58,591 bases of DNA, taken from assembly GCA_027031485.1 (NCBI GenBank), contig JALVQI010000242.1, forward strand, positions 1-58,591, written 5' to 3'. This DNA is from Candidatus Aminicenantota bacterium (GTDB lineage: Bacteria > Acidobacteriota > Aminicenantia > JAMOAD01). The translations under genes and the position numbers were made by a program. Shown here in pieces: positions 26,955-39,243 of this stretch (position 1 is its first letter; the number at the start of each line of letters is the position of its first letter). The notes beneath the pieces were generated by a model. The model worked only from the letters and a program-made list of their open reading frames with translations. It did no database searches and was not told the DNA's origin.

Positions 26955-28570
26955 TTTTTCCTCTTCACTATTAGTATCGTAAAATCATCCAACAGATTTC
27001 CAGCGGATATTTTTTTCACATCTTTCAAAATGTGATTCCATATCTGAGGTAAACTCATATCTCTATATTTATTCAGATACTTTTTTACTCCTCTTAAACC
27101 TATTTCCTTCTTTAAAACACCTATTGATTCGTATAATCCGTCAGTATAAAGAAAAAGAATATTTTCAGGGTTCATTTTTATGTTAAAAGATGAATATTTG
27201 TAGTTTTTAAAGAACCCAAGTATTGTATTGCCCTTTTTCAATGTATAAATTCTTTTTCCTTTGTAAAGTAAGGGGTAATTATGGCCACAATTTATTAACT
27301 CTATATTTCCCCCGTCTATTTTACCAAAAATTGCTGTTATAAATTGATTGCTCTCTGTGTTCTCATAGACAAAAGAGTTTATTTCCTCAACCTTTTCTTC
27401 AAAACTCTTTTCTTTTTTAAATATTATTAAAAAAGCACTCTTAAAAAGGGCGACAAGAAGGGAGGCAGGCACTCCCTTTCCTGAGATATCAGCTATAACA
27501 AAATAAAGAATATCTCCGACTCTGAGAAAATCAAAAAAATCTCCTCCTACTATTTCAGCGGGTTCCGTTCCGCCGAAAATCTCAAAATAATTATGTTTTG
27601 GAAAAGATTTTGGAATCATTCTATCCTGTATCTGTTTTGCAATTTCAAGTTCTCTTTCGATTTTGTTCTTCTCTATTCTTTCTCTATACAAATTTGACCT
27701 TTCTATTGCAATTGCTGCAATGGATGCAAAGGCATTTAAAATTCTTAAATGTTTCTTGGAGTATTGAGATAGTTTATTGCTTTCAAGATTCAAAATACCT
27801 ATTGTTTTATCCTTTGAAATTATCGGAACAACTATTTCGGATTTTGTTTTTTCTCTCGCCTTGACATATATCTTTTCATTGTTAACATTCATACTTATGT
27901 ATGGTTTTCCGTTTTTTGCGACGAGACCAACAAGCCCCTGACCTATCTTTACCTTTAGCTTTTCAAGATTCTTTTTTGGGAAACCCTTAAAATACAATGT
28001 TTTCAGATTATTTTTCTCATGATCCAGAATATATATTGCCACAGCATTGTAGTCTATGATTTTTTTCAATGATTCAACTATCTTTTTTAATATATTGTTG
28101 AGTTCAAGGTATAGGGATAAATCTATATTCACCTGGTACAGTGTCTTTGAAATCTCTTTCTCAAAGTCCAGCCTCTCTTTTATTAAAAAGTTTTTTAAAA
28201 CAATGTTAACCAGATTAACTATTATCTCTTCATCAAAATTTTTAATTTTCTTTTTTGGTTTAAAAATAATGAAACCTAAAAATTCTCCGTCAAACTCGAA
28301 TTTCCAGTATCCTTTTTCTTTTGAATGAATGGAAAAAATTTTCTTTAAATCGCAATCCTCTTCTATTATTGAGTCCAATTTAAGGTATTTTCCATCAGCA
28401 AGATAAAATTTTTCCACACAACCTTTTTTTTCATTTTTCAGGTAAAAAACACACTCTTTTAAACCTTGATTATCTAAAAATTTCAAAAATCCTGAGATAA
28501 ATTTCTTTTTTTTATCGGCTATTTTTACCAAGCTTAAAAGCTTTGCGGAAATCTCTTCTTTTTTAATCAT
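26951..28570 (-). CDS. GAF domain plus PP2C-type SpoIIE/RsbU-like serine phosphatase
   Basis: GAF-like VGLVAKNGKPYISMNV...; KQIQDRMIPKSFP, EIVGGDFFDFLRVG, VIADISGKGVPASLLVAL, FLYTDGLYES, DDFTILIVKRK. Confidence 0.92.
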   Translation of the reverse strand: MIKKEEISAKLLSLVKIADKKKKFISGFLKFLDNQGLKECVFYLKNEKKGCVEKFYLADGKYLKLDSIIEEDCDLKKIFSIHSKEKGYWKFEFDGEFLGFIIFKPKKKIKNFDEEIIVNLVNIVLKNFLIKERLDFEKEISKTLYQVNIDLSLYLELNNILKKIVESLKKIIDYNAVAIYILDHEKNNLKTLYFKGFPKKNLEKLKVKIGQGLVGLVAKNGKPYISMNVNNEKIYVKAREKTKSEIVVPIISKDKTIGILNLESNKLSQYSKKHLRILNAFASIAAIAIERSNLYRERIEKNKIERELEIAKQIQDRMIPKSFPKHNYFEIFGGTEPAEIVGGDFFDFLRVGDILYFVIADISGKGVPASLLVALFKSAFLIIFKKEKSFEEKVEEINSFVYENTESNQFITAIFGKIDGGNIELINCGHNYPLLYKGKRIYTLKKGNTILGFFKNYKYSSFNIKMNPENILFLYTDGLYESIGVLKKEIGLRGVKKYLNKYRDMSLPQIWNHILKDVKKISAGNLLDDFTILIVKRKK

Positions 28571-30852
28571 TAGCTCCTTATTCCGAGATAAAGGTATACA
28601 GCTATTAGTAAGAAAATTATATTAGCTCCCAGAGCGGATAAAGATGGAGGTAAAAGGCCAACACTTCCTAAAGATTTGAAGATTCCAAAGAATATCCAGT
28701 ATAGAAGAGAGATGGTAATTGCAGCACCGACACCTACGAGAGTCCCGCTTTTCCCCAATTTCAAAGAAAAAGGGATACTAAACAATATCATAATAAAATT
28801 TATAAGTGGAAATCCGATCTTGGTATAAAGGTTAACCTCGTATTCTCTTGATTCGAAATTATTCTCTTTAAGATATTTGACATACTTTCTCAGTTGAAAA
28901 AAATTCATCGTTTCAGGATCAACTCTTTTTGAAGTGAAAAAATCTTCGGATTCAAGTATCCCTATTTTTTTCCTCTTAAATTTTTTAAATGAATCCAAAA
29001 ATCCGTTTTTAAAGTCAGCTTCCCAGCCATTTTTTAAAATCATGTGGAAATTACCAAGGTATGCTCTCTTTGCAACAAACCTCTTTTGGGCTTCAAAGTC
29101 CTTATTTAAGGAAAAAAGTTCAAAATTGGTGAATATTTTCTTTTTTCTGTTAAAATGTTTGTAATGATATATATTGTTGTATTTTGATATTTGCCAGCTA
29201 TTAAAAGCACTTATGTAACTATTTTTCCTGTCCATTATATTGTTTCTAATCTCTTCAGCTCTCTTGTTTGAAACAGGTAAAATCTTCTCCTGTATCCAGA
29301 AGCTTCCTGAGCTAATTATAATTCCTAAAAGTAAAAAGTTAACACTTAATCTGAAAACACTTATTCCGAGTGATTTTATGGCGAGAATTTCATTGTTTTT
29401 GACCATAATCCCCACTGTGAGCAAGGTTGTCGCCAGCGAAGAAATTGGTAAAATATATTCAATTATCTGGGGAGTGAAAAAATAGAGATATTTAAACAAA
29501 AGGGAGATACTTTTCTTGTTTTCTAATATATCATCGATAAGCTCAAAAAAAGTAATAATAAGGAAAATCATAAACATGCTTAATATAATGAGAATGAAAA
29601 TCTTAAGAAAGAGTGAGAGTACATAGCGATCTAAAATATTCGGGTATTTAAAACTTAGCTTCTGTATTTTTATCTTAAAAGCGGTTTTTTTCAGATTTGA
29701 AAATCTCTTTTTCTTTACAGTTGTTTCACTCTTGTTTACACCCTTTTTTGCAAAAATATTAAGCTCTTTGAATTTATTGTTTAACAAAAATATTATTCCT
29801 ATGGTTAAGAAAAATATATTTGGTCCCCATAAGCCTAAAAGGGGAGAGATATATCCGTCTATGGAGAAATTTTCTCCCCAGGAAAAAGCGGTAAAGTATA
29901 CAATTATTATTATCAGGCTTAACGAAAAGCCGCCTCTTTTAACACTTAATCCAAGTCCTACTCCTAATATGGCAAAAACTATCGCGGAAAAGGGCAAGGC
30001 CACTCTTTTATGAAGTTCTGAAATATACGCCAATTTTAATTTTTCAGGTAGAATTTTTCTTTTTAGAGTTACAAGTAATTCTTTGTATGTTTTATCTCTT
30101 CGTCTTTTTGAAACATGGAATTTTCTGAAGAAAAAATCCGTATCCAGAGGATGAAGAATGTAGGAGAATTTTGCTGTCGTATAGTTTTCGGGTTTTTTGT
30201 TTTCAAACATATGGACAAAGCCATTCACAAGTTTTACTTCTGCTGTTCTTGCTCTCTTATCTATTCTCAACTCACCCTTTTTAGCTATTAACACTTTGTT
30301 CTTTTCAGGATCCATTTGACTGAAAAGAAAAACATCTCTCCACTTTTTATCTTTCCCTTTATCCTTAATGTAGAGAGTAATTCCCGGCAATCCCCTTACG
30401 AATTTTCTCGGTTCAATTTCCTCGCCGGTTTTTTCAAGAATAATTTTAACAATTGTTTTTGTAAAAGTATAATTTGAGTAAGGAGCTATGTAGAAGGTTA
30501 TCATTATATGAAAAAGGAAAACCAAAATGGAAAGAAAAAGGACAGGTCTGAAAATTCTATTCAGAGAAATTCCCAGGGATCTCATGGCAAGGTATTCAGA
30601 ATCAGCTGACAATCTGCTCATTGCCATAAGTACCGAGAAAAGAAAGGCCATGGGAATTGTTATTGAAAAAAGTCCGGGTAAGAGAGAGCCAAATAATTTA
30701 ATAACAATCAGAATATTTACATTCTTTGATATTAAGAGATCTGTAAGATCAAATATTCTACTGGTTAAGAGTGTGAAGGTGTACAAAAGAAGACCGATTC
30801 CGAAATAGGGTAGGATTTCGTTTATTATATATCTGTCAAGGCTTGTTCTCAT
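28570..30852 (-). CDS. LptF-LptG fusion permease (LPS transport YjgP/YjgQ family)
   Basis: 760 aa with two tandem YjgP/YjgQ-like halves, each starting DRYII.../DRYVLSLFLKIF with matching TM organisation and MAMSRLSADSEYLAMRSLGIS / VGIMVKNNEILAIKSLGIS motifs. Confidence 0.9.
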   Translation of the reverse strand: MRTSLDRYIINEILPYFGIGLLLYTFTLLTSRIFDLTDLLISKNVNILIVIKLFGSLLPGLFSITIPMAFLFSVLMAMSRLSADSEYLAMRSLGISLNRIFRPVLFLSILVFLFHIMITFYIAPYSNYTFTKTIVKIILEKTGEEIEPRKFVRGLPGITLYIKDKGKDKKWRDVFLFSQMDPEKNKVLIAKKGELRIDKRARTAEVKLVNGFVHMFENKKPENYTTAKFSYILHPLDTDFFFRKFHVSKRRRDKTYKELLVTLKRKILPEKLKLAYISELHKRVALPFSAIVFAILGVGLGLSVKRGGFSLSLIIIIVYFTAFSWGENFSIDGYISPLLGLWGPNIFFLTIGIIFLLNNKFKELNIFAKKGVNKSETTVKKKRFSNLKKTAFKIKIQKLSFKYPNILDRYVLSLFLKIFILIILSMFMIFLIITFFELIDDILENKKSISLLFKYLYFFTPQIIEYILPISSLATTLLTVGIMVKNNEILAIKSLGISVFRLSVNFLLLGIIISSGSFWIQEKILPVSNKRAEEIRNNIMDRKNSYISAFNSWQISKYNNIYHYKHFNRKKKIFTNFELFSLNKDFEAQKRFVAKRAYLGNFHMILKNGWEADFKNGFLDSFKKFKRKKIGILESEDFFTSKRVDPETMNFFQLRKYVKYLKENNFESREYEVNLYTKIGFPLINFIMILFSIPFSLKLGKSGTLVGVGAAITISLLYWIFFGIFKSLGSVGLLPPSLSALGANIIFLLIAVYLYLGIRS

Positions 30853-32710: not shown

Positions 32711-34165
32711 TTATCCCGCCAGATGCTCCAGTGTTTTTGTAAGTAGAATCCAGAATCTTTCCACTGTTGAGATCTGAACCTTTTCGTCGGGAGAATGGGG
32801 GTTTTTAATAGTGGGGCCAAATGAGATCATATCCATTCCGGGAAATTTTTCCCCTATGATACCTGTCTCAAGTCCTGCGTGAATAGCCTCAACAACAGGT
32901 TCTTTCCCGAAAATCTCCTTATGGAGTTTTACCATAGTCTTGAGAATTTCAGAATCAGGATTCGGTGTCCATCCGGGATATGGATTCGGCTGCTCTATCT
33001 CTGCTTCTATTAATTTAGCAAAAGCTTTAAGAGAATTAAGCACAAATCTTAATTCGGAGTTTATTGAGCTTCTGCTGCTCTTAACAATTTCAAAAGATTT
33101 TTCTTTTGTATGAACAGCGGCAAGATTCGTGGATGTTTGGACTAATCCTTTTATTGCCTGGCTCATTGCAAGAACTCCGTGGGGAAGAGCAAGTATTGAA
33201 TTAATAATTTTATCTCTAACCATTTTTGTAAATACTTTATCAGGCATCTTTTCATCCTTTGCTTCAATCATAACTCCATCATCCGTTCCCTTAAGCTCCT
33301 CTTTTACCTCTGAGAGGACACATTTTACTATCTTTTCAAGCTCGGGCTCATCTTTCTTGTTTAAAACGATAATCGCATAGGCTTCTCTCGGAATAGCATT
33401 TCTTTTATCTCCACCTTCTATGAGATTAAGCTCATAGTCAACCTTTTCTCTGAGTTCATACAAAACTCTCCCGACAATCTTTATGGCATTTCCTCTACCA
33501 CTGTTTATGTCTACTCCGGAATGTCCTCCTTTTAAACCTGATACAAAAATTCTTACTGCTTTTTCATTTCCCGGAATAATGGTTTCAGTTTCCAGCGTAA
33601 AGATGGAATCTCCTCCTCCTGCACATCCTATTGTAAAAACACCATCATCTTCACTATCAAGATTCAGTAGTATTTTTCCTTTTAAAGAACCTGGTTTTAT
33701 ATAGGCTGCTCCGGTAAGTCCCCTTTCCTCATCAATAGTGAAAAGGGCTTCTATGGGGCCATGAACAAGAGAATTATCTTCAAGCACAGCAAGTGCTGCA
33801 GCAACACCGATTCCATTGTCAGCTCCAAGTGTTGTTCCATCAGCTTTAAGCCAATCTCCTTCCCTTTTTAATTTAATTGGGTCCTTTGTAAAATCGTGGT
33901 CAACATCAGAATTTTTTTCACAGACCATATCTATATGTCCCTGTAGAATAACACCCGGTGCATTCTCCTTACCGGGAGTGGCGGGCTTTCTGACAATGAT
34001 ATTACCCACTTCATCCTTTGTGTAATCAAGTTTATGTGCTTTCGCAAATTCAACAATATAGTTTCCGATAGCTTCTTCATTACCTGAGCATCTCGGGATT
34101 TTCCTGATTTCATCAAAATGTTTCCATAAAATTTCGGGTTTTAAGCCTTCAAGCACTTTATCCAT
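32711..34165 (-). CDS. pepD: Aminoacyl-histidine dipeptidase (PepD, M20)
   Basis: FDEIRKIPRCSGNEEAI, LQGHIDMVCEKN, LGADNGIGVAAALAVLED, FTIDEERGLTGA, GLKGGHSGVDI. Confidence 0.94.
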   Translation of the reverse strand: MDKVLEGLKPEILWKHFDEIRKIPRCSGNEEAIGNYIVEFAKAHKLDYTKDEVGNIIVRKPATPGKENAPGVILQGHIDMVCEKNSDVDHDFTKDPIKLKREGDWLKADGTTLGADNGIGVAAALAVLEDNSLVHGPIEALFTIDEERGLTGAAYIKPGSLKGKILLNLDSEDDGVFTIGCAGGGDSIFTLETETIIPGNEKAVRIFVSGLKGGHSGVDINSGRGNAIKIVGRVLYELREKVDYELNLIEGGDKRNAIPREAYAIIVLNKKDEPELEKIVKCVLSEVKEELKGTDDGVMIEAKDEKMPDKVFTKMVRDKIINSILALPHGVLAMSQAIKGLVQTSTNLAAVHTKEKSFEIVKSSRSSINSELRFVLNSLKAFAKLIEAEIEQPNPYPGWTPNPDSEILKTMVKLHKEIFGKEPVVEAIHAGLETGIIGEKFPGMDMISFGPTIKNPHSPDEKVQISTVERFWILLTKTLEHLAG

Positions 34166-34346: not shown

Positions 34347-34377
34347 ATACACTATCTTTATTGATTAAACATTAACC

Positions 34378-34405
34378 GTAGGGGCAATTCATGAATTGCC
34401 CCTAC
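34378..34405. repeat. 28-bp perfect palindrome GTAGGGGCAATTCATGAATTGCCCCTAC (REP/MITE-like), with a partial copy at 34534-34562
   Basis: Sequence equals its reverse complement; the partial copy ATTGAATTGCCCCTACAAATATTTATTGC matches the right half plus flank. Confidence 0.85.
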
Positions 34406-34582
34406 AGATATTTGTTGCGCTTTGCCATTTTTTAAATTAAAAAAATCAAAAATTAAAAAAAATTAATCACAAAAAATTACCCATATTCCCTGTAATTAGC
34501 TCAAGGCTCAAAGCTCAATGCTCAGGGCTATTACATTGAATTGCCCCTACAAATATTTATTGCAGTTCACCTTATAGTCTTT

Positions 34583-35758
34583 TTAAAAAAATTTCTTTAT
34601 ATTAATTAGAACAATAATTAAAAAGATGATTATGAATAGAAAATTTTGTAAGAGGTTATTTTTAAACTCTTTTACCTCTTTCGTGTTTAAAAGATAAAAC
34701 ACAAAGAGAGCAACTATAGGAAGAAGAAGGGCATTGGTAACCTGAGCTAAAATTATAAGTGAAAGGGGTTTTATCTTTAAAAAACTAATAATCACACCTG
34801 TAAGGATTACTATTGTGAAGATTAATTTAAACAGTGGATTATTTTCTTTCCAGCCGAAAAGTCCCTTTGATGTGAATGATGCGGCATAGGGTGCTGTGAT
34901 CGCCGAAGAAAGGCCCGCGGAGAATAATCCGATACCAAAGCTTATTTCAGCAAAATTCCCGAACAATGGTTTTAATTGTAACGAAAGATCAGCCGGAGAT
35001 GAGATTGTCAAATGCTTTAGAAAGTATGCAACACTTGCGGTTATGATTATTGCAATTGTTATAAATCCGCCCAATCCTATAGCAAGAACAATATCCCATC
35101 TCATAAGTTTTATGCTATCCTTTGATTTCCACTTTTTTAAAACCGATGATGAGTGTAAAAAAAGGTTGTATGGAACAATGGTGGTGCCTAAAAGGGCAAG
35201 AATAAGAGTAATGGAGCCTTTTGGAATTGAAGGTTTCAATCCTTTGATTATCTCTGAAATTTCAGGGCTTACAATTATAGCTGTAATAAAAAAGCTTATT
35301 CCCATAATTACAACCAAAAACACTAAAAATTTTTCTATAATCTTATATTTGCCTATAAAAAGGAGAATAAGAGCAATAAGGCTTATTATTATAACCCAGA
35401 TATTGAGAGAAATTCCTGAAATTATATTAATTCCTAAGGCACCGCCTATTATATTCCCGGCTTCATATGCCGCACATCCAACTATAATTGCTAAAAATGC
35501 AAGGATTTGAAACACTATTTTTATCAAAGAATTTTCAGGTATTTTCACAAGAGCTGAGCCAATATCCATACCTGTTGAGAGGGAGAATTTTCCAACCATC
35601 TCCTGTAAAATGATAGCTGAAACTATGGCTATGATAACCACCCATATCAGAGAATAGCCGAATTTTGCCCCCGCAAGTGTTGCTGATGTCACTGTTCCCG
35701 GGCCTATAAAGGCAGCTGCTATTAAAAATCCGGGACCAAATCTATTCCTTTTTCCCAT
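34583..35758 (-). CDS. Divergent NRAMP (SLC11) superfamily transporter
   Basis: N-terminal GPGFLIAAAFIGPGTVTSATLAGAKFGYSLIWV and TM6-like LLGTTIVPYNLFLHSS fit NRAMP, but canonical DPGN and MPH are replaced. Confidence 0.88.
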   Translation of the reverse strand: MGKRNRFGPGFLIAAAFIGPGTVTSATLAGAKFGYSLIWVVIIAIVSAIILQEMVGKFSLSTGMDIGSALVKIPENSLIKIVFQILAFLAIIVGCAAYEAGNIIGGALGINIISGISLNIWVIIISLIALILLFIGKYKIIEKFLVFLVVIMGISFFITAIIVSPEISEIIKGLKPSIPKGSITLILALLGTTIVPYNLFLHSSSVLKKWKSKDSIKLMRWDIVLAIGLGGFITIAIIITASVAYFLKHLTISSPADLSLQLKPLFGNFAEISFGIGLFSAGLSSAITAPYAASFTSKGLFGWKENNPLFKLIFTIVILTGVIISFLKIKPLSLIILAQVTNALLLPIVALFVFYLLNTKEVKEFKNNLLQNFLFIIIFLIIVLINIKKFF

Positions 35759-37286
35759 AACCTCCTCCTCCCGGTGTTTTTATTATAAGAGAATCTCCCT
35801 TTTTTAATCTTATATTAAATTTGCCACCCATTTTAATTTTTTTATTGTCTTTTATTACAATATTTTCACCCTCTTTTCCACTTTTACCTCCGAAAAGACC
35901 ATATGGTTTGTAAACCCTTCTTTCGGAAAGCACACTAACATCAACATTATCAAGAAAAATATACTCTCTTATAATTCCGTCTCCTCCCCTCCATTTGCCT
36001 TTACCTCCGGAGTTTTTTCTTATTGAATATCTTTTTATAATAACAGGAAAATTTCTTTCTATTGCCTCAATCGGTGTGTTCAGTGAATTTGTCATATGGG
36101 TATGAACAGCCGAACAACCGTTAAAGCCTTTTCCTGCTCCGCTTCCTCCTCCTATTGTTTCATAGTAGGTATAGCCCTTTCCGCCGAAAGAAATATTGTT
36201 CATTGTCCCCTGAGAAGCCGCCGGGATTTTATCTTTAAGCATTTTTGAAAAAGCTCCTAAGAGAACATCAACAATTCTCTGGGATGTTTCAACATTTCCT
36301 CCGGCAATGGCTGATGGCTTTTCCGCATTCACAATACTTCCCTTCTTTATATTAAGTTCAACAGGCCTCATAATTCCCGAGTTTATCGGTATATCTTCTC
36401 CCGAAAGTGTTGTTAGCACATAAAGAACTGCTGAATATGTTATTGCTTTATTGGCATTGATTCCCCCTCTAACCTGAGAATGGGACTTTGAAAAATCTAT
36501 CTTTATTTTATCTCCGCTTTTCTCTATTTCAACATTTATATTTATATTCTTTGAACCGAATCCATCATCATCTAAAAAATCTTCAAAGGAAAATTTACCC
36601 TTCGGGACAGATTTTATAAAATCTTTAAAAATTTTTTCCGTATAATTGATAAGCTCTTCCGAAAAGTATCTGATTTTTTCTACTCCATACTTTTCTATTA
36701 TCTCCTTTAATCTTTTTATTCCCCTTTCATTTGCCGCAATTTGAGCCATTAAATCTCCCTTTCTCTCCTCCGGAGTTCTGACATTGCTCAATATTAAATT
36801 TAAAATATCTTTGTTAAGCTTACCCTTTTTAATTATTTTTAAAGGTGGAATTATCAGTCCTTCCTGAAAGATTTCAGATGCCAGAGGCATGGAACCTGCC
36901 TGCATTCCCCCGACATCACTGTGATGTGCTCTGTTGGCTACTATGAAAAGAAGCTCCCCATTGTAAAAGAGCGGGGAAATAAGGGTTATATCCGGTAGAT
37001 GGGTTCCTCCTCTGTACGGGTCATTGAGTATGACCATATCTCCCTCTTCCAAAATCACCTCTTCAAGTGCTGTCTTTACTGAGAGAGGCATTGCTCCCAA
37101 ATGAACAGGGATATGGGTTCCGAAGGCAAAACTTTCCCCTCCGGATGTAAAAAGTGCGCATGAAAAATCATTCCTCTCCTTTATGTTTGGCGAAAATGCA
37201 GAGCGTTGAAGAATTTTTCCCATCTCATCACTTACAGATTGAAAAATATTTTTGAATATTGTGATTTCTATTGAGTCCTTAATCAT
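35742..37286 (-). CDS. hyuB: Hydantoinase B/oxoprolinase family protein
   Basis: ERNDFSCALFTSGGESFAFGTHIPVHLGAMP, LNDPYRGGTHLPDITLISPLF, RAHHSDVGGMQAGSMP, TPGGGGYG. Confidence 0.95.
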   Translation of the reverse strand: MIKDSIEITIFKNIFQSVSDEMGKILQRSAFSPNIKERNDFSCALFTSGGESFAFGTHIPVHLGAMPLSVKTALEEVILEEGDMVILNDPYRGGTHLPDITLISPLFYNGELLFIVANRAHHSDVGGMQAGSMPLASEIFQEGLIIPPLKIIKKGKLNKDILNLILSNVRTPEERKGDLMAQIAANERGIKRLKEIIEKYGVEKIRYFSEELINYTEKIFKDFIKSVPKGKFSFEDFLDDDGFGSKNININVEIEKSGDKIKIDFSKSHSQVRGGINANKAITYSAVLYVLTTLSGEDIPINSGIMRPVELNIKKGSIVNAEKPSAIAGGNVETSQRIVDVLLGAFSKMLKDKIPAASQGTMNNISFGGKGYTYYETIGGGSGAGKGFNGCSAVHTHMTNSLNTPIEAIERNFPVIIKRYSIRKNSGGKGKWRGGDGIIREYIFLDNVDVSVLSERRVYKPYGLFGGKSGKEGENIVIKDNKKIKMGGKFNIRLKKGDSLIIKTPGGGGYGKKE

Positions 37287-39243
37287 TTTTCACCATCAAA
37301 ATATTTGAAAATTCATCAATTTCAAGGGAAAAGGAGGGCGGAACAACAAGAGTTGAAAATTCTGATATCAAAATTGCCGGAGTTTTTAACTTAGCTTCAG
37401 GATAAAGTTCTTCTCTTTTGTAATAATTGAACTTTGTAAACTTTCCATTATAGTAAATCTTTTTGACCTGAGATTCTATATTTCTTTTCTTTTCTATTTT
37501 AGGATTAAATTTAGCCTCTGATATTTTACCGACTGCTATAAGTCTTATGTTTACTATCTCAATATCCTCGTCTTTTAAAGAGTATGAGTAAAGTTTTCTG
37601 TGTTCTCTGTGAAAATTTGTAATATAGTTTTTATCAAAAGGTATTGAAAGTTCATATGATTGTCCCCTATATCTCATCTCCACATATTTTAAGATCTCAC
37701 TTTTTTCTTCCGGTATGTTTTCATCTTTTAAAATATTAAATGCCTTTTTCTCCAATTTTTTAAATTCATTTTTAATGAAAAATTCCGTTTCTTCAGACTG
37801 CATTTTTAAAATAGGAAGTGAAAATTCTTTTTGAAATTTTGAAAAAATCATTCCCAGAGCTGAAAAAACACCCTGATTATCGGGGATGAGGATTTTCCTG
37901 ATATCAAGCCTTTCCGCAAGAAATGAAGCTATAAGGCCTCCGGCTCCCCCAAAGGGCAAAAGTGTAAAAAATCTCGGATCCTCTCCCTTTTCCACTGTAA
38001 TCCTTCTTAAAGCTCTCTCTATTGAGGAGACAGATATCTTTATAATTCCTTCAGCTGTTTCATAAACTGTTTTCCTCAATTTATCGGCAATCTTTTTAAT
38101 TGCTTTAAAACTCCTTTCCGGGTGGATCTTCATCTTTCCGCCTAAAAAATAATCGGGATCAATTATATTCAGTACGACAAAAGCATCTGTTATGGTTGGA
38201 AGTTCGGATTTTCCATAACATGCGGGACCGGGATCTGCGCCCGCACTTTCGGGTCCCACCTGTAAAACTCCGGCTCTGTCAACCTTTGCAATTGAGCCTC
38301 CCCCGGCTCCCACCGTCTCTATCTCTATCATGGGAATTTTTATCTTTAAATGGTTCATCTCTCTGTCTTTTGACAATATTAAATTTCCATCCTTTATTAG
38401 AGAAACATCTGTTGATGTTCCTCCCATATCCAGAGTTATAAGATTTTTTTCACCTGAAATATCAGCTATGAGTTTTGCGGCAATAAGCCCTCCGGAGGGA
38501 CCTGAGAGCAGAGTTCTTACAGGTTCAATCTTTATCTTTTCAGGGGAAAGAACTCCTCCGTTTGATTGAATGATGTAAAACTTCTTTCCCTTTAAACCTT
38601 CCTGAATTTTATTAATATAGTTTGACACAATTGGCATAAGAGATGAATTTAAGACAGTGATAATTCCCCTTTCATACTCCCTGTATTCGGGAAAGATTTC
38701 GGAGGAGATTGTTATAAAATCAAAACCTTCGTTTTTAAGAATATCTTTCACCCTTTTTTCGTTTTTACTGTTTTTGTAAGAGTGTAAAAAGAGGATTGCA
38801 ATCGCTTTTGCTTTTCTCTCTTTTATTTTTTTTGCTATCTCCGAAATCTCTTTATCTTCCACCTCTTTTAAAACTTTTCCGTCAAAAAGTATTCTTTCAT
38901 TTAGCCCGAATATCATATTATCTTTAATAATCTGAGACGGTTTTTGAGGATTTAGAGAGAAAAGATTCACTCTGTTTTGTCTTCCTATTTTAAGGATATC
39001 CTCAAATCCCTTTGTTGTAATAAAGGCTGTCTTAGTCATCTTATTTTCAAGAAAGGTATTTGTCGCAACAGTAGTTCCGTGGATTAGTAAAAAATCTTTT
39101 TTAAGATAGTGCTTTAAACCATCCAAAATTGTTTTTTCCGGATTTTTGGGGGTTGAAAGAATTTTAAAGCTCTTTATTTTTCCGTTTTCAAACACAACAA
39201 AATCAGTGAATGTTCCACCCGTGTCAATTCCAATTGTAAGCAT
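37279..39243 (-). CDS. hyuA: Hydantoinase/oxoprolinase A family protein
   Basis: IGIDTGGTFTDFVVFENGK, LLIHGTTVATNTFLE, LSGPSGGLIAAKL, LDMGGTSTDVSLI, VGPESAGADPGPACYG. Confidence 0.95.
   Translation of the reverse strand: MLTIGIDTGGTFTDFVVFENGKIKSFKILSTPKNPEKTILDGLKHYLKKDFLLIHGTTVATNTFLENKMTKTAFITTKGFEDILKIGRQNRVNLFSLNPQKPSQIIKDNMIFGLNERILFDGKVLKEVEDKEISEIAKKIKERKAKAIAILFLHSYKNSKNEKRVKDILKNEGFDFITISSEIFPEYREYERGIITVLNSSLMPIVSNYINKIQEGLKGKKFYIIQSNGGVLSPEKIKIEPVRTLLSGPSGGLIAAKLIADISGEKNLITLDMGGTSTDVSLIKDGNLILSKDREMNHLKIKIPMIEIETVGAGGGSIAKVDRAGVLQVGPESAGADPGPACYGKSELPTITDAFVVLNIIDPDYFLGGKMKIHPERSFKAIKKIADKLRKTVYETAEGIIKISVSSIERALRRITVEKGEDPRFFTLLPFGGAGGLIASFLAERLDIRKILIPDNQGVFSALGMIFSKFQKEFSLPILKMQSEETEFFIKNEFKKLEKKAFNILKDENIPEEKSEILKYVEMRYRGQSYELSIPFDKNYITNFHREHRKLYSYSLKDEDIEIVNIRLIAVGKISEAKFNPKIEKKRNIESQVKKIYYNGKFTKFNYYKREELYPEAKLKTPAILISEFSTLVVPPSFSLEIDEFSNILMVKND

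Follow-up and report, generated by a model that had tools for sequence, protein, structure and literature searches.

A non-canonical NRAMP permease encoded with hyuA and hyuB in Candidatus Aminicenantes as a probable importer of 5-oxoproline

The stretch of DNA analysed here (58,591 nucleotides of contig JALVQI010000242.1, hereafter the window) belongs to a Candidatus Aminicenantes genome and carries a tight operon, hyuA-hyuB-nramp, in which the genes for two enzyme subunits are followed by a gene for a permease related to the NRAMP metal transporters. The substrate of this permease is the subject of the present report. The features of the operon, including the codons for the relevant parts of transmembrane helices (TM) 1, 3 and 6 of the permease, are as follows.

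34583..35758, reverse strand: nramp, a 391-amino-acid (aa) NRAMP-related permease of the GPGT clade described below (Pfam Nramp, 283 bits against a cut-off of 29.8)
35165..35188, reverse strand: TM6 unwound centre, codons G191-T-T-I-V-P-Y-N198; GATVMPHV in DraNramp by alignment
35453..35467, reverse strand: TM3, codons Y98-E99-A-G-N102; positions of DraNramp T130, D131 and E134 by alignment
35693..35704, reverse strand: TM1 unwound centre, codons G19-P20-G21-T22; DPGN in canonical NRAMPs, by phmmer alignment to DraNramp
35742..35758, reverse strand: 17-bp overlap of the hyuB stop and the nramp start, read directly from the sequence
35742..37286, reverse strand: hyuB, 514 aa, metal-binding subunit of an ATP-dependent lactam/hydantoin hydrolase (PF02538 Hydantoinase_B, 680 bits)
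35761..35771, reverse strand: GGAGGAGGAGG, Shine-Dalgarno-like, immediately 5' of the nramp ATG in the Gly codons of the HyuB C-terminal PGGGGYG
37279..39243, reverse strand: hyuA, 654 aa, ATP-binding subunit (PF05378, PF01968 and PF19278, i.e. Hydant_A_N, Hydantoinase_A and Hydant_A_C)

Both junctions of the operon overlap, as the hyuB start also lies 8 bp inside the end of hyuA. The operon and its 17-bp overlap had been reported in a preliminary description of this DNA, and the open reading frames (ORFs) were found again at the same coordinates. A chance overlap of hyuB and nramp is ruled out because the 17 bp are kept in 11 of the 12 Aminicenantia loci compared. The ribosome-binding site of nramp is probably GGAGGAGGAGG. 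An NRAMP 98% identical to that of the window is encoded on a Candidatus Aminicenantes contig (L074).

The window protein is an NRAMP by family and by predicted fold, and not by its metal site. The AlphaFold2 model, built from 31 sequences, has a predicted local distance difference test score (pLDDT) of 86 and a predicted template modelling score (pTM) of 0.88, and its helix breaks fall at residues 18-19 of TM1 and 194-195 of TM6, i.e. at the motifs. In a Foldseek search with this model, EleNRMT and DraNramp were the closest (template modelling score, TM-score, 0.86), followed by the more distant ApcT (0.67) and Mhp1 (0.65); the integrative YcsG model 9a52 gave 0.81. The Pfam score together with the TM-score of 0.86 to NRAMP structures places the protein in the NRAMP/SLC11 superfamily. 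In the phmmer alignment with DraNramp, the metal-binding side chains are all exchanged (D56 to G19, N59 to T22, M230 to V195), with two further changes in TM6 (A227 to T192, H232 to Y197). The loss of the metal ligands described earlier, with GPGT in place of DPGN and VPY(N) in place of MPH, therefore agrees with the alignment, and the structural model of the substrate site, proposed at the same time, puts the helix breaks at these very positions. The canonical proton path in TM3 is altered as well (D131 to E99, E134 to N102). Likewise, the signature of the NRMT Mg2+ transporters, DxxG in TM1 and TxxA/T in TM6 (PMC8806188), is absent (G19..T22, T192..V195), and the protein lies outside the NRMT clade. 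DraNramp D56A has no transport activity (PMC13060092), whereas EcoDMT with N, A and M swapped to the NRMT residues and the aspartate retained still carries Mn2+ (PMC8806188); hence the TM1 aspartate is the critical loss. The genome encodes a second NRAMP paralogue (L069, G000:C211:23491-24777) with another non-canonical TM1 (GMIGAGAVAT) and without Hyu or Pxp neighbours.

These motifs are common to a clade and are no oddity of a single sequence. A phylogeny of NRAMPs with GPG(T) in TM1 had been suggested as a check, and in a careful tree of 66 sequences four separate groups were recovered: the GPGT group (100/99), the YcsG-type proteins (100/100), NRMT (100/99) and the canonical DPGN proteins (100/100). 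A quick tree of 122 rows is concordant, with the GPGT proteins on one side of a branch of support 97. The window protein belongs to the GPGT clade by its tree position and by the motifs FIGPGT, Y[EQ]xGN and GTT[VI]V[PG]YN. One divergent sequence (L264) has GPGT in TM1 but a different TM6 and falls outside. The loci were obtained by similarity-ranked and TM1/TM6-pattern fetches with a cap at the best 80; many are from Flavobacteriia and many of the genomes are metagenome-assembled. The clade ranges over Aminicenantes, Bacteroidota, Haloarchaea, Pseudomonadota, Bacillota, Actinomycetota and SAR324. GPGT is invariant across it, and the enzyme-linked members described below conserve TM6 as GTT[VI]V[PG]YN, a conservation that is partly by construction for loci fetched with the TM1/TM6 patterns in the genome scan; TM3 and the gene neighbourhood are unaffected by this, and N102 is invariant in all 83 enzyme-linked members. 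In Haloarchaea, a further uncharacterised group of NRAMP paralogues has AAGPAT in TM1 and GGAVHxTL in TM6 (L188-L190, L192, L196).

The gene neighbourhood gives the strongest indication of the substrate. Among 97 GPGT members, which are not mutually independent as many are from Flavobacteriia, 83 lie within 3 kb of genes for 5-oxoprolinase-type enzymes and in the same direction. The partners are PxpABC (52 loci), split HyuA-HyuB (26) and fused HyuAB proteins of 1231-1263 aa (5). Such a partner is absent from all 46 other NRAMPs compared, most of which come from these genomes or from the class of the window (Fisher p about 2e-25, a descriptive value as the rows are related). The conserved association with oxoprolinase or hydantoinase genes, on which the earlier proposal depended, thus came out strongly positive. 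One locus (L039) was scored as linked with a HyuB fragment that ends at the contig edge just before the NRAMP gene. As the seeds of the neighbour search came from the window and from three further loci, remote partners may have escaped it. The gene order varies between lineages, being HyuA-HyuB-NRAMP in Aminicenantes, NRAMP-HyuA-HyuB in Haloarchaea and NRAMP-PxpA-PxpB-PxpC in Flavobacteriia. The type of partner changes at least 5 times on the GPGT tree, with the TM1, TM3 and TM6 motifs unchanged throughout. PxpABC has no sequence similarity to the HyuAB/OPLAH superfamily (PMC8453981); the partners therefore share a reaction and not an ancestry. The known overlap of the three enzyme architectures is the opening of 5-oxoproline, which accordingly ranks first among the proposed substrates, with hydantoins second. 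Bacilli and Gammaproteobacteria were sampled less selectively; there, 14 of 16 YcsG-type NRAMPs stand beside Pxp genes, and no canonical NRAMP was found in such an operon. Two canonical DPGN/MPH proteins of that sample (L232, L236) lie about 2.5 kb from a HyuA-family gene, possibly acetone-carboxylase-like, with a regulator gene between; here an NRAMP that retains its metal site may truly supply Mn.

The window enzyme has the features of the HyuAB/OPLAH hydrolases. The HyuA motifs DTGGTFTD, DMGGTSTD and GADPGP match by alignment the P1, P2 and A motifs of the family (DxGGTxTD, DxGGT and GxxPGP), and HyuB conserves the Asp-His-Asp-His metal ligands D41, H99, D102 and H124 of CapB (PMC8453981). 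These ATP motifs and metal ligands are common to OPLAH 5-oxoprolinase, HyuAB, CapAB and N-methylhydantoinase. A published remark on Lys40 (PMC8453981) was considered as a discriminator of oxoprolinases from hydantoinases and dropped; the printed CapA sequence has no Lys at position 40. In the HyuB tree, the nramp-linked split enzymes group with the haloarchaeal, the fused and the permease-linked enzymes described next (support 93). Unlike the window HyuB, CapB and N-methylhydantoinase fall outside this group, a placement of moderate weight given the long branches. PxpA was not found in the window's own genome and this HyuB was the only one; hence, if the genome opens 5-oxoproline by a known enzyme, the window HyuAB is that enzyme. 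Its neighbourhood equivalence with PxpABC and the fused enzymes suggests that it is a 5-oxoprolinase.

In three Aminicenantia genomes, the nramp slot directly after HyuA-HyuB is occupied by a permease of the major facilitator superfamily (MFS).

L298:8575-9798: MFS permease in the nramp slot
L299:8657-10033: MFS permease in the nramp slot
L300:5596-6966: MFS permease in the nramp slot

The HyuB proteins of these loci are sister to the Aminicenantia HyuB group that contains the nramp-linked ones. Such a replacement would be expected were the substrate the cargo of nramp, and metal supply accounts for it only with difficulty. The swap fits substrate transport because the MFS is a superfamily of mostly organic-solute carriers.

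It is probable (roughly 70%) that nramp encodes a permease for the import of 5-oxo-L-proline (pyroglutamate), or of a very close lactam, which HyuAB then opens with ATP. The permease would be a LeuT-fold secondary carrier in which the metal site has been exchanged for a site for a small organic molecule, and it would bring the lactam into the cell. HyuA would use ATP to phosphorylate the lactam, and the metal-bearing HyuB would then open the ring to yield glutamate for catabolism. In the binding site, the GPG backbone of TM1 and the polar residues of TM3 and TM6 (Y98, N102, Y197, N198) may hold the carboxylate and the lactam, by analogy with the APC amino-acid transporters, in which the TM1 glycine motif has such a role. 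Both the cargo and the direction of import are suggested by the gene context. The preliminary description had proposed 5-oxoproline, a hydantoin or a related compound as the substrate of this branch, and not a metal. The count of 83 of 97 against 0 of 46 supports the organic substrate, and the three enzyme architectures narrow the list to 5-oxoproline first and hydantoins second; the exclusion of metal is not proven by sequence, since the YcsG lineage has published evidence both ways (PMC13274462, PMC10448178).

Several findings weigh against 5-oxoproline import, and some of them speak for its main rival, in which the permease takes up Mn2+ or another divalent metal and supplies the metalloenzyme partner (HyuB, PxpA or the ureohydrolase introduced below) with its cofactor. 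HyuB retains all four metal ligands of CapB and PxpA is probably metal-dependent (PMC8453981); metal supply would also yield such an association. Acetone carboxylase, of the same superfamily as HyuAB, is Mn-dependent (cited in PMC8453981). YcsG/MntG, of a type that also has no TM1 aspartate, increases the Mn2+ content of cells when overexpressed, and MntR binds its operon (PMC10448178). In some other Aminicenantia, pepD-ridA-hyuAB occurs with no nramp gene, and a ZnuA-type metal importer of the ATP-binding cassette (ABC) class is encoded nearby. Furthermore, the clade is not uniform, as 14 of the 97 members have no enzyme link; three of these, and one more from the later sample, adjoin an arginase-family ureohydrolase instead.

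L132:7923-9206: GPGT-clade NRAMP beside an arginase-family ureohydrolase
L140:7977-9182: the same arrangement, with an agmatinase-like ureohydrolase
L148:7947-9203: the same arrangement
L255:4908-6125 (later sample): the same arrangement, the ureohydrolase carrying PF00491

In these four proteins TM3 reads YI[AST]GD in place of Y[EQ]xGN. Arginase-family ureohydrolases usually use Mn2+, and for this reason the sub-clade could support metal supply; it could also reflect a changed organic substrate, and within the clade these loci are well placed to tell the two readings apart. A metal importer nevertheless appears unlikely here. The TM1 aspartate, the TM1 asparagine and the TM6 methionine are all replaced, and canonical DPGN/MPH proteins were not found in such operons, apart from the two with a HyuA-family gene about 2.5 kb off behind a regulator gene. 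Moreover, it was an MFS permease and no metal importer that took over the nramp slot, the window's own genome has a separate ZnuA-type protein, and growth of a pxpT mutant on 5-oxoproline is restored by pxpT alone (PMC13274462).

Enzymes of the HyuA/HyuB family hydrolyse caprolactam and 5-oxoproline as well as hydantoins and N-methylhydantoin (see also PMC8453981). The sequence does not settle which lactam is used, because the top NCBIfam scores of HyuA and HyuB are to caprolactamase (480 and 264 bits, below the equivalog cut-off of 1000 bits), which also counts against 5-oxoproline, and the best PDB relative bears the name N-methylhydantoinase. Hence the permease might serve another small ring amide, such as a hydantoin, N-methylhydantoin, a caprolactam-like lactam or a dihydropyrimidine. 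This is rather improbable, as permeases of this clade, their pocket motifs unchanged, adjoin the 5-oxoprolinase PxpABC in 52 loci, CapB and N-methylhydantoinase branch apart, and no carbamoylase or other hydantoin-pathway gene was seen beside the operon among the window ORFs and their Pfam matches. The direction of transport cannot be read from sequence, 5-oxoproline arises spontaneously in cells (PMC13274462) and the genome lacks a C15 pyroglutamyl peptidase, all of which would accommodate export of 5-oxoproline or its product, or equilibration across the membrane. Such a role is very improbable given the co-expression with a ring-opening enzyme and the pxpT growth phenotype, which favour import.

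The nearest precedent for import of 5-oxoproline by an NRAMP relative is the YcsG lineage. Corynebacterium glutamicum needs pxpT to grow on 5-oxoproline, and the gene, whose product shares 50% identity with YcsG, restores growth when supplied in trans; growth evidence exists for both PxpT and YcsG, and the authors infer uptake without excluding metal transport (PMC13274462). Conversely, Bacillus subtilis YcsG has been renamed MntG as a Mn2+ importer, and the older 5-oxoproline data may reflect polar effects according to the authors (PMC10448178). According to a 2026 preprint, MntG belongs to 'G-motif 3', and the Nramp-related groups other than G-motif 3 and the NRMT-like proteins are entirely uncharacterised (PMC12873925). 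YcsG had been put forward as a parallel to the window protein. Its neighbourhood in the pxp cluster is as had been said (PMC13274462, PMC10448178) and, like the GPGT proteins, the YcsG-type proteins have no DPGN or MPH, with GPG in TM1, GN in TM3 and Gly/Pro-Tyr in TM6, and are encoded with PxpABC. However, they form a lineage of their own on a long branch, with GPGF and GGY against GPGT and VPYN, and in the loci examined they have Pxp partners only and never HyuAB. A joint clade of the two is not rejected by the approximately unbiased (AU) test (p = 0.35); with this and the long YcsG branch, the link to 5-oxoprolinases may have arisen once or twice. The YcsG-type label was assigned from the gene order pxpA-ycsG-(ycsI-like)-pxpB-pxpC in L276, as a YcsG-type protein found no match among PDB sequences.

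Among the better known transporters, the canonical NRAMP/MntH proteins DraNramp and BfraNramp share the fold (TM-score 0.83-0.86), the broken TM1 and TM6 and the Pfam family with the window protein, but they have the metal-ligand side chains, the TM3 proton-path residues and another gene neighbourhood. EleNRMT, the closest solved fold, has a TM6 that also starts with GTT; unlike the window protein, the NRMTs keep the TM1 aspartate in place of Gly and form a separate clade. The hydantoin permease Mhp1, which serves hydantoin uptake, and ApcT have the LeuT-type fold at lower similarity, but belong to different families with no membership at the sequence level.

Downstream of the operon, a dipeptidase gene lies on the same strand.

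32711..34165, reverse strand: pepD, M20 aminoacyl-histidine/cytosol dipeptidase (TIGR01893, 617 bits)

The gene is separated from nramp by a repeat-bearing gap of 417 bp and is possibly context of the operon only; in other Aminicenantia, pepD and RidA-family genes also adjoin HyuAB. Seven loci have HyuAB without nramp near pepD and a RidA-family gene (L292, L293, L296, L302, L306, L307, L308), several of them with a divergent ZnuA-type metal ABC importer. Two copies of a 27-nt repeat (93%) and a palindrome of 19 nt lie in the gap at 34373-34563, perhaps a small repeat of mobile or terminator-like kind. Elsewhere in the window, a 760-aa ORF (28570-30852, reverse strand) has two LptF_LptG stretches and appears to be LptF and LptG fused in one protein.

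That the NRAMP relatives YcsG/PxpT serve 5-oxoproline use is already published (PMC13274462). New are the separate clade, its HyuAB and fused-enzyme partners and the ureohydrolase-linked sub-clade, which appear to be undescribed; no paper joining NRAMP and hydantoinase was found in the literature searched. NRAMPs are the textbook example of metal transport, and annotations still assign divalent metals to members that lack the metal site. With 5-oxoproline import, one widespread group gains a specific, testable substrate, and many annotations could be corrected. The finding also bears on the conflict over YcsG (Mn2+ or 5-oxoproline), since a second NRAMP lineage proves to be linked to 5-oxoprolinase-type genes, here of three enzyme types, and it points to a possible route of pyroglutamate use in uncultured Aminicenantes and in haloarchaea. 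More tentatively, the GPGT clade might be an organic-solute permease family of bacteria and haloarchaea within the NRAMP superfamily, with 5-oxoproline as the substrate of proteins with Y[EQ]xGN in TM3 and a guanidino-type compound as that of the proteins with YI[AST]GD at the four ureohydrolase loci. If so, metal transport by NRAMPs would be one specialisation of a broader lineage of solute transporters.

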